Positions 45,724 through 51,193 of a DNA stretch of 51,193 nt are shown piece after piece (positions within the stretch are counted from its first letter, which is position 1; every line of letters starts with the position of its first letter). This DNA is from Dysgonamonadaceae bacterium. GTDB lineage: Bacteria > Bacteroidota > Bacteroidia > Bacteroidales > Azobacteroidaceae. The notes beneath the pieces were generated by a model. The model was not told the origin of the DNA, ran no database searches, and was given only the letters and a program-made list of their open reading frames with translations. A program made the translations under genes and the position numbers. Where the stretch lies: the NCBI GenBank assembly GCA_031253625.1, contig JAIRVZ010000054.1:1-51193 (forward strand), written 5' to 3'.

Positions 45724-46836
45724 ATGAAGAAAATTTTGAGCATTTTATGTTTGGCGACAGTATTGTTGCCTTTAAACGCACAGACCGTTGTTCCGTGTGA
45801 GCAGACAACCCCTCTGACCAATGGAACACCTGTTGTGTTTGGATCAGCAAGTCAAAAGACTGGTAATATCGCAGGTACTCCATTTCATTACGAGATCTGG
45901 TTAGATAGCCGTAATGCGGGCTCTCGAGAAGTTAGCTTTGAGTACTATGGAAAAGATCAAGGCGGTGGTGCTGCATTCAAATCATCATGGGTAGAACCTA
46001 ATAACTATTTAGCTCGTACAGGTTATTTTTGGAATAATGGCGGACACTATACCCAGTACAAAAATATTTTCTGCGATTTTAACTTTACAAGGTCGGGACG
46101 AGCTACTACTGGCACATGGTCTTATATTGGGATTTATGGTTGGTCAAGAAATCCAAGCCGCACAAATCCGGGTGAAAAAATGACGGAGTACTATATTGTG
46201 GAAGATTGGTTCGGTAATAAATGGCAATCTGATACCACTCCCGTTAACATTTCCACAACCGGAGGAAGCGTTGTCGGCACGATTAATGTAGACGGTTCAA
46301 TCTATGATATTGTTATGAACGTAAAGACTAATGCACCTTCTCCTAATAATAGCAATGATACATTCGTCCAAATTTTCAGTATTCGCCGAAAACAGCGCAA
46401 ATGTGGAAGAATTTCGGTTACCGAACACTTTAAGAAATGGGAAGAACTTGGTTTAGTATTTGGTGAAAGGATGTATGAATGCAAGTTCAAAGTTGAAGCT
46501 GGCAAGGGTACAGGATGGATTGATTTCTCATATCTCACATTCAGTCAGGAAGATCCAAACTCCAACAATACACTTACGGTCAACGTTTCTCCTAAACTGT
46601 ATGTAAATACTGTAAACTCTAATGTGAATGTAAATTTCATGGCAATAGAGAGCGGTGAAACACATCTTGGGCTCTACAGCGTAACAGGCAGTCTTGTTTC
46701 ATCGGCACAATTGAAGACTGTTGCCGGTGAAAACTACTCTTACACATTCAGTCGGGAAAAACTTTCGAGCGGAATTTATATCGTAACGATGCAGAACAAT
46801 GGCAATGTAGAACAAGCAAAGGTAGTGATACCATAA
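45724..46836 (+). CDS. GH11 endo-1,4-beta-xylanase with T9SS sorting domain
   Basis: A 370-residue secreted xylanase. A signal peptide (1-19) is followed by the GH11 jelly-roll (about 30-280) with YIGIYGWSRNP, the nucleophile Glu155 in MTEYYIVEDW, FVQIFSIRR, ISVTEHFKKWEELG and the second catalytic Glu258 in KVEAGKGTGW. The last 80 residues are a T9SS type A sorting domain (LYSVTGSLVSSA, SSGIYIVTM). Both catalytic acids are intact. GH11 enzymes are uncommon in Bacteroidota (recollection). T9SS export would place it on the cell surface or outside. It ends the secreted run and is followed by a terminator. Confidence 0.9.
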   Translation: MKKILSILCLATVLLPLNAQTVVPCEQTTPLTNGTPVVFGSASQKTGNIAGTPFHYEIWLDSRNAGSREVSFEYYGKDQGGGAAFKSSWVEPNNYLARTGYFWNNGGHYTQYKNIFCDFNFTRSGRATTGTWSYIGIYGWSRNPSRTNPGEKMTEYYIVEDWFGNKWQSDTTPVNISTTGGSVVGTINVDGSIYDIVMNVKTNAPSPNNSNDTFVQIFSIRRKQRKCGRISVTEHFKKWEELGLVFGERMYECKFKVEAGKGTGWIDFSYLTFSQEDPNSNNTLTVNVSPKLYVNTVNSNVNVNFMAIESGETHLGLYSVTGSLVSSAQLKTVAGENYSYTFSREKLSSGIYIVTMQNNGNVEQAKVVIP

Positions 46837-49246: not shown

Positions 49247-51193
49247 ATGTATACGCTATTATCCAAAGAATTACGAAGTATCTTTAATTCCGTTTCCGGG
49301 ATTCTCTTTTCCTGTATCTTTCTAATTGTATGTGGATGCCTGTTGTGGTTTATTCCGGGAAATTACAATATTGCCGAATCGGGATATGCCTCTTTGTCTT
49401 CATTTTTCGCTTTGGCTCCGGTTTTGTTGCTCGTCTTGATTCCGGCATTGGCGATGCGGACTTTTTCGGAAGAAAAAAAACAAGGAACATTATCATTACT
49501 GATTACTCGTCCAGTTAGTTTGTTTGAGATAGTTTTCTCGAAATATTTAGCTGTTTTTATCAGCATTGTTGTCGTTTTGTTACCAACTTTAATTTATGTC
49601 GTTTTTCTTTCATACAGCGCTTTGCCACAAGGAAATATCGATTGGGGAGCCATTACCGGTTCGTATTTGGGATTACTGTTTTTGGTTTCAACCTTTGTTG
49701 CAATTTCGGTTTTTGCATCTTCTCTGACCTCTAATCAGGTAGTTGCTTTTATTACAGGATTATTGATTTGCATCGTTTTTTATTTCGGATTTGATTTGTT
49801 TTCCGGATTATTTTCTTCCGGGAAAACTCATTATATGATAAGGAATATCGGCTTTTTATCACATTATCAATCTATTCAAAAAGGAGTGATTGATATTTCC
49901 GATATCATCTATTTTTTTGTCGTTTCGTGCCTGTTTTTGGTATTTACAAAACAAACGCTCACCGTCATTTCGAGCACAGCGAGAAACCTGCCGTCCAATT
50001 ATCGACGCTTTTTTATTAGCATATTAGCTTTAGCTACATTGTTAATCGCAAGTTTCTTTTTTAGTTTCAAATTTGACCTGACTTCCGATAAACGTTATAC
50101 TCTTTCCAAACCGGTAAAAACGTTGTTGAGAGAAATTGAATTACCGGTTACGGTTGAATTTTATCTGACAGGCGATTTAAATTCGGGATTTTATCAATTG
50201 CAAAGAGCGAGTTTAGATATGCTGAATGACTTTTCCGATTTGTCGTCGGGCAAAGTCAGTTATCGGGTAATAAATCCTTATCAAGAAGATAAAGAATTTA
50301 TAAAAACATTGTCGGAAAAAGGAATTAAAGCCATTGCTGTTAATGAAAGAAACCGGGAAGGAAAAATAGTGCAACAAATCGTTTTCCCATACCTTTTATT
50401 TATATCGGGAGAAAATGAAATTCCTGTATCACTTTTGGTTAACGAACCGGGAAAATCGGGAGAAGAAAACCTAAATGCCTCAATCGGAATGCTGGAATAC
50501 CGTTTGACGCAGGCTTTAGAAAATGTTATCAGAAAAGAACCTCATAAAATCACTTTTTTACAAGGTCATGGCGAATTAACTCACGACCAAATGTCGGATC
50601 TTTTCGATTTGTTAAGCTATAATTATGAGATATATTCCGGAACTTTACCCGAAAATCCAGAGGTAAATATTTTAGATGATTCTGAATTGGTTATTATTCC
50701 CGGGCCACAAGAACCTTTTGCCGAAGACGAAAAATATATATTAGACCAATATATCATGCGTGGTGGAAAAGTGATGTGGATTATCAACGGTGTCAAACTC
50801 GATTTGCATGCTTTGGCTACTGCCGGCGCTACACCAACCATGGCCAATGAAGTAAACTTGGAAGATTTACTTTTCGGTTATGGATTCCGAATCGAGCCTG
50901 TTTTGCTGGCTGATGTGCAATGCCTCGAAATTCCGATAGATACCAATATGGAAGACGTTGACGATTCTTTTGAGGTAGCACCTTGGTTTTACGCACCGAT
51001 TTTGAATGCAACTCAAGGACCAATCATAAACAAAGGTATTTCGTTGGTAAAAACAGCTTATGCAAGCATTCTTTCTTTTGTCGGGAAAGAGGCGGAAAAT
51101 CCGGTTCGCAATCAAGTATTGTTGCATTCGTCCGAACTTTCAGCCATCGTGCAAGTTCCGGAAAAAATCAGTTTACATGAAATAAACCGTATT
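49247..51193 (+). CDS. GldF-GldG fusion, ABC-type gliding/T9SS-associated membrane protein (partial)
   Basis: An open frame of 649 codons with no stop, running off the right edge. Residues 1-about 240 are an ABC-2 permease like GldF (six membrane segments; MYTLLSKELRSIFNSVSG, then FSEEKKQGTLSLLITRP). From about 258 a GldG-like ABC_transp_aux protein begins with a membrane segment (FISILALATLLIASFF) and FDLTSDKRYTLS, followed by its periplasmic domain (ITFLQGHGE). In Flavobacterium johnsoniae these are separate genes of about 241 and 560 residues. The junction (49963-49990) is a dispersed-repeat-like sequence. It fits the T9SS-tagged proteins elsewhere in the window. No GldA gene is seen. Confidence 0.88.
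   Translation, partial: MYTLLSKELRSIFNSVSGILFSCIFLIVCGCLLWFIPGNYNIAESGYASLSSFFALAPVLLLVLIPALAMRTFSEEKKQGTLSLLITRPVSLFEIVFSKYLAVFISIVVVLLPTLIYVVFLSYSALPQGNIDWGAITGSYLGLLFLVSTFVAISVFASSLTSNQVVAFITGLLICIVFYFGFDLFSGLFSSGKTHYMIRNIGFLSHYQSIQKGVIDISDIIYFFVVSCLFLVFTKQTLTVISSTARNLPSNYRRFFISILALATLLIASFFFSFKFDLTSDKRYTLSKPVKTLLREIELPVTVEFYLTGDLNSGFYQLQRASLDMLNDFSDLSSGKVSYRVINPYQEDKEFIKTLSEKGIKAIAVNERNREGKIVQQIVFPYLLFISGENEIPVSLLVNEPGKSGEENLNASIGMLEYRLTQALENVIRKEPHKITFLQGHGELTHDQMSDLFDLLSYNYEIYSGTLPENPEVNILDDSELVIIPGPQEPFAEDEKYILDQYIMRGGKVMWIINGVKLDLHALATAGATPTMANEVNLEDLLFGYGFRIEPVLLADVQCLEIPIDTNMEDVDDSFEVAPWFYAPILNATQGPIINKGISLVKTAYASILSFVGKEAENPVRNQVLLHSSELSAIVQVPEKISLHEINRI
49963..49990. repeat. dispersed-repeat-like sequence at the gldF-gldG junction
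   Basis: CGTCATTTCGAGCACAGCGA (49963-49982) and the following GAAACCTG resemble a repeat I recall as widespread in Bacteroidetes genomes (CATTTCGAGCGnAGCGAGAA). Here it is in frame and encodes VISSTARNL between the GldF and GldG parts. One copy only is seen in this window, so the repeat status is from recollection. Confidence 0.5.

Follow-up and report, generated by a model that had tools for sequence, protein, structure and literature searches.

In Flavobacterium johnsoniae, GldF and GldG are separate proteins that, together with GldA, make up an ABC transporter belonging to the gliding/T9SS machinery.

Two kinds of short palindromic repeat are relevant as well. CGTC-tagged REPs, including intragenic ones in conserved genes, were described earlier, with Bacteroidetes among the phyla listed (Di Nocera and colleagues 2013, PMC3733652). 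Rickettsia palindromic elements (RPEs; Ogata 2000, 2002) are mostly longer, about 150 bp according to what the review gives on them (PMC10969869).

Here we analyze a stretch of DNA of 51,193 nucleotides (the window), at the end of which a gldF gene and a gldG gene are joined in one reading frame with a REP-like repeat at the junction. Overall, the results point to a long-established gldF-gldG fusion and a later in-frame insertion of the repeat into the linker (probability about 0.93 for this account as a whole).

The fused gldF-gldG reading frame

The frame lies on the forward strand at 49247..51193, starts with the ATG at 49247 and continues for 649 codons, stop-free, to the end of the window, which is also the contig end; the C terminus is lost beyond that point and only the upstream portion can be read. 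Residues 1-239 (49247..49963, forward strand) represent GldF, an ABC-2 type permease. The NCBIfam model TIGR03518 matches them over model positions 1-238 of 240 (E 1.3e-75; 254.4 bits against a curated cut-off of 288.5), there are ABC2_membrane matches in Pfam, and by Foldseek this half resembles NosY, a permease subunit (TM-score by target up to 0.72). Residues 254-649 (50006..51193, forward strand) represent GldG, with the domains DUF7088 and ABC_transp_aux (PF23357 at residues 280-385 and PF09822 at 434-644). TIGR03521 matches residues 254-647 with an E-value of 3.2e-92 and is covered to position 400 of 552. The score of 309.9 bits is lower than the cut-off of 389.85, at least partly because the contig end removes the last 150 model positions. 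Sequence comparison of the GldG domain with solved structures yields a weak IFT52 match only. The initial annotation had claimed a fusion of the two genes, and the single stop-free frame with the GldF profile followed by the GldG profile confirms this.

The repeat occupies 49963..49989 (forward strand), where it is read as TVISSTARNL (residues 239-248). It is followed at 49990..50055 (forward strand) by the remainder of the linker and TM7, the former GldG signal-anchor helix, as judged from the AlphaFold2 model and the alignment. This model has a mean pLDDT of 84 and places a transmembrane helix at residues 217-242 and a further helix at 245-269, with a break between them at 243-244; the local minimum in confidence (67) is at residues 241-250, over the repeat residues. 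The C terminus of free GldF and the N terminus of GldG are both expected in the cytoplasm. A cytoplasmic loop would thus link the halves and leave the topology unchanged, which would explain both the recurrence of the fusion and the tolerance of the loop for extra residues.

A GldA-type ATPase, as needed for a GldA-GldF-GldG transporter, is encoded in the same genome in a short form (C18:45089-45760; 290.7 bits over model positions 1-222, below the cut-off of 402.6). It measures 224 aa and ends about 75 positions short of the C terminus of the GldA model. Similar short forms are seen in several family relatives with a fused gldFG (open frames of 232-282 aa), and the order-level relatives have about 300 aa. 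The ATPase and gldFG co-occur: 8 of the 18 family members checked have both, and among the remaining 10 one is found without the other only in G007, a genome that is 75% complete. Since GldM is present in the genome too, a T9SS-type setting for the fused gene is likely. Elsewhere in the window, the end of the protein encoded at 45724-46836 resembles, by eye, a type A T9SS sorting domain.

A dispersed repeat at the junction

The junction bases 49963-49989 read CGTCATTTCGAGCACAGCGAGAAACCT and show 0 mismatches to the repeat pattern of the genome. The initial annotation had seen a repeat here and proposed a genome search for further copies. That search supports it: at up to 3 mismatches the degenerate 27-mer has 52 copies in its own 3.14-Mb genome, against 0 for the reversed-pattern control. 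The 20-mer first noted occurs once in the window (0 expected in shuffles); at the same limit the genome has 21 copies of it.

The tag of the 27-bp unit has C or T at its first base in 50 of the 52 copies, followed by TC in most. Its stem covaries over these copies, with T-A in 25 and C-G in 25 at one pair, and A-T in 29 and G-C in 18 at another. DNA folding of the single junction copy gives a weak hairpin (z -0.08); the palindromic nature is thus indicated by the covariation and not by the folding of one copy. Inverted (head-to-head) pairs are present on contigs C84, C118, C126, C55, C96, C34, C42 and C58. We regard as a CGTC-tagged REP a dispersed palindrome of 20-40 bp with a terminal CGTC or TGTC tag and many copies, a self-complementary stem and frequent head-to-head pairs, and the element has all three of these characteristics (size, tag and copy number; stem; pairs). 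The bases at 49963-49989 are a genuine copy of it.

The length of the unit is divisible by three and five of its six frames are open. It is rare in relatives: copies of any kind were found in 4 of the 36 searched, with 2 to 12 each, mostly weaker. A link to Y1_Tnp (RAYT) genes, which RAYT-mobilized REPs would flank, was sought and not found: all 5 Y1_Tnp genes in the genome lack a REP copy in the surrounding 1.5 kb or so.

The gldFG insertion is one of several tolerated REP insertions in this genome. In metH an in-frame copy adds about 10 residues that all 9 aligned relatives lack, and in hemW an in-frame inverted pair adds about 15. A gyrase/topoisomerase IV subunit A gene has an in-frame copy near the N terminus (C93:41750-41776, read as RHSEHSEEPP), and a THUMP-like methyltransferase gene has an in-frame pair about 100 bp apart (C126:11839-11967) with PG_1098 family domains downstream. 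A Bacteroidales lineage of the termite-gut type hereby joins the genomes in which REPs are tolerated in conserved genes (gldFG, metH, hemW and others).

Two side observations concern the same genome. In two similar TPR/AraC-type regulators (L172 and L177) the last residues are supplied by a REP copy in each. Besides the HemW with the REP pair, there is another HemW-like frame with 52% identity to it, which starts at a contig end (C35:1-1005) and might be a paralogue or stem from a foreign contig in the bin.

Age and origin of the fusion

All 12 same-family relatives having the gene encode gldFG fused in one frame, as full-length single frames of 769-867 aa from stop to stop, and the repeat of the window is absent from the junction in all 12. 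Fusions are also seen in Dysgonomonas and in Flavobacteriaceae, and the named relatives with a fusion include Gaetbulibacter, Aequorivita and Mangrovimonas. In total 67 of the 110 examined loci are fused, in a sampling biased towards fused or in-frame pairs. In a tree of both domains without the linker (100 rows, quick method, one very long row) the window falls within a well-supported clade of 30 rows, every one of them fused, and the fused or separate state changes at least 10 times over the 100 rows (parsimony 12). The fused state is old and recurrent in Bacteroidota. A very divergent fused gldFG-like gene (L043, G054:C20) coexists with separate gldF and gldG genes, which form a pair on a different contig of that genome. 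Among the papers searched, none on a gldF-gldG fusion was found.

The linker lengths are consistent with a fusion that preceded the repeat. Measured in one way for 13 rows of the family (including L083), the linker has 21-32 residues with a median of 29; by the same measure that of the window has 38, an excess of 9 residues or 27 nt, which is the length of the repeat unit. Because relatives are fused without the repeat and the excess equals one unit, the repeat would have entered a linker that already existed. This step is read from the alignment: the nearest homologue is about 50% identical, and no strain-level relative with an empty insertion site was found.

The initial annotation had instead proposed, as the simplest reading, that the repeat insertion removed the gldF stop and so joined the genes. 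The REP does sit exactly at the junction, and with most of its frames open a read-through is possible in principle. However, fusion without it is seen in every family relative having the gene and throughout the clade of 30 rows around the window, the linker of the window exceeds theirs by just the length of the REP, and the lineage would have had to revert to separate genes and then fuse them again. The comparison with relatives had been set beforehand as the test that could refute the claim, and it reveals the same fusion with no repeat at the junction. As a cause of the fusion the REP is therefore refuted on parsimony, and we consider this course of events very improbable.

Even less credible is an assembly artefact in which metagenome contigs were misjoined at the 27-bp repeat, creating the fusion. 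A short dispersed repeat is a typical misjoining point and the genome is fragmented (135 contigs), but the gldF and gldG flanks have the order, strand and frame seen in all family members with the fused gene, which a misjoin would not recreate.

How an old fusion may have arisen is suggested by the separate genes. Among 42 unfused pairs, 32 have both genes in a common frame, in most cases separated by one stop codon, a fraction that is inflated since the search favoured matches spanning both genes; in a less biased sample, 3 of 13 unfused order-level loci are in frame. Loss of such a single stop would therefore be a simple route to fusion.

A second repeat in the same linker

In a Candidatus Symbiothrix relative (L082) the gldFG linker contains another kind of REP, present as an inverted pair, GTCATTGCGGGCTTGACCCGCAATC, translated as VIAGLTRNP...GLRVKPAMT. 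The unit has 74 copies in the genome of that relative, and the inverted pair folds into a hairpin of very high stability (z -12.9). Neither repeat occurs in the relatives that lie between L082 and the window on the tree, so the insertions took place independently. Loops of essential-type proteins can be extended by short palindromes, as seen here from two different REP families in a single linker.

It could be argued from these two independent insertions, by unrelated families in two family members, that REPs land preferentially in this linker and that the REP peptide was recruited, for instance to tune the length of the linker, the insertion into the membrane or the handling of the mRNA where gldF meets gldG. 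Most family members, however, do well with REP-free linkers of 21-32 residues, the REPs of the genome also lie in unrelated loops, suggesting tolerance, and two cases are too few for a hot spot. Such recruitment seems unlikely, though less remote than a REP-made fusion. Slightly more doubtful still is the related idea that unrelated REP families have repeatedly landed in the gldFG linker and become domesticated there as coding sequence, changing how the permease is coupled to the periplasmic domain.

Proposed explanation

In the account that we favour, an old fusion with a later insertion, the gene would encode one polypeptide. This would begin with a six-helix ABC-2 permease, its last helix ending in the cytoplasm, continue through a short linker on that side of the membrane and the former anchor helix of GldG, which leads outwards again, and close with the periplasmic domain of GldG. 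The fused GldFG probably works with the separately encoded GldA-like ATPase. We infer that the fused protein is made and that GldF:GldG is thereby fixed at 1:1, as would follow from any translational fusion. Here and repeatedly elsewhere, the fusion probably arose through loss of the single stop between adjacent in-frame genes, judging from the unfused relatives. Later, and in the lineage of the window only, a 27-bp CGTC-tagged REP would have entered the linker in-frame and lengthened the TM6-TM7 loop, where length already varies, by about 9 residues (TVISSTARNL); the insertion was probably near-neutral. It is a known kind of event (an intragenic REP insertion) in a recurrent fusion. The causal reading is thereby corrected: as an old and recurrent state, the fusion is useful evidence for GldF and GldG acting as a single unit.

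Comparison with known systems

As for F. johnsoniae GldF and GldG, both families (TIGR03518 and TIGR03521) follow in order along the frame, and the genome has a GldA-like ATPase and GldM. In contrast to F. johnsoniae, the window encodes one polypeptide instead of two, and the cut protein scores below the curated cut-offs.

With the CGTC-tagged REPs, as far as their anatomy is given in PMC3733652, the 27-bp element shares the CGTC or TGTC tag, a stem starting with AT or TT, a loop of the 5-nt class, head-to-head pairs and insertions within conserved genes. It differs in the tandem G-A / A-G mismatch of the stem in this genome and in its host lineage, which is not among the examples consulted; the likeness is to the general anatomy of the class, for which four consensus families are published there. 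Like the RPEs as summarized in PMC10969869, it is a palindromic repeat found in-frame in many unrelated genes and read as an extra peptide, yet with a unit of 27 bp where those elements are mostly longer, at about 150 bp.
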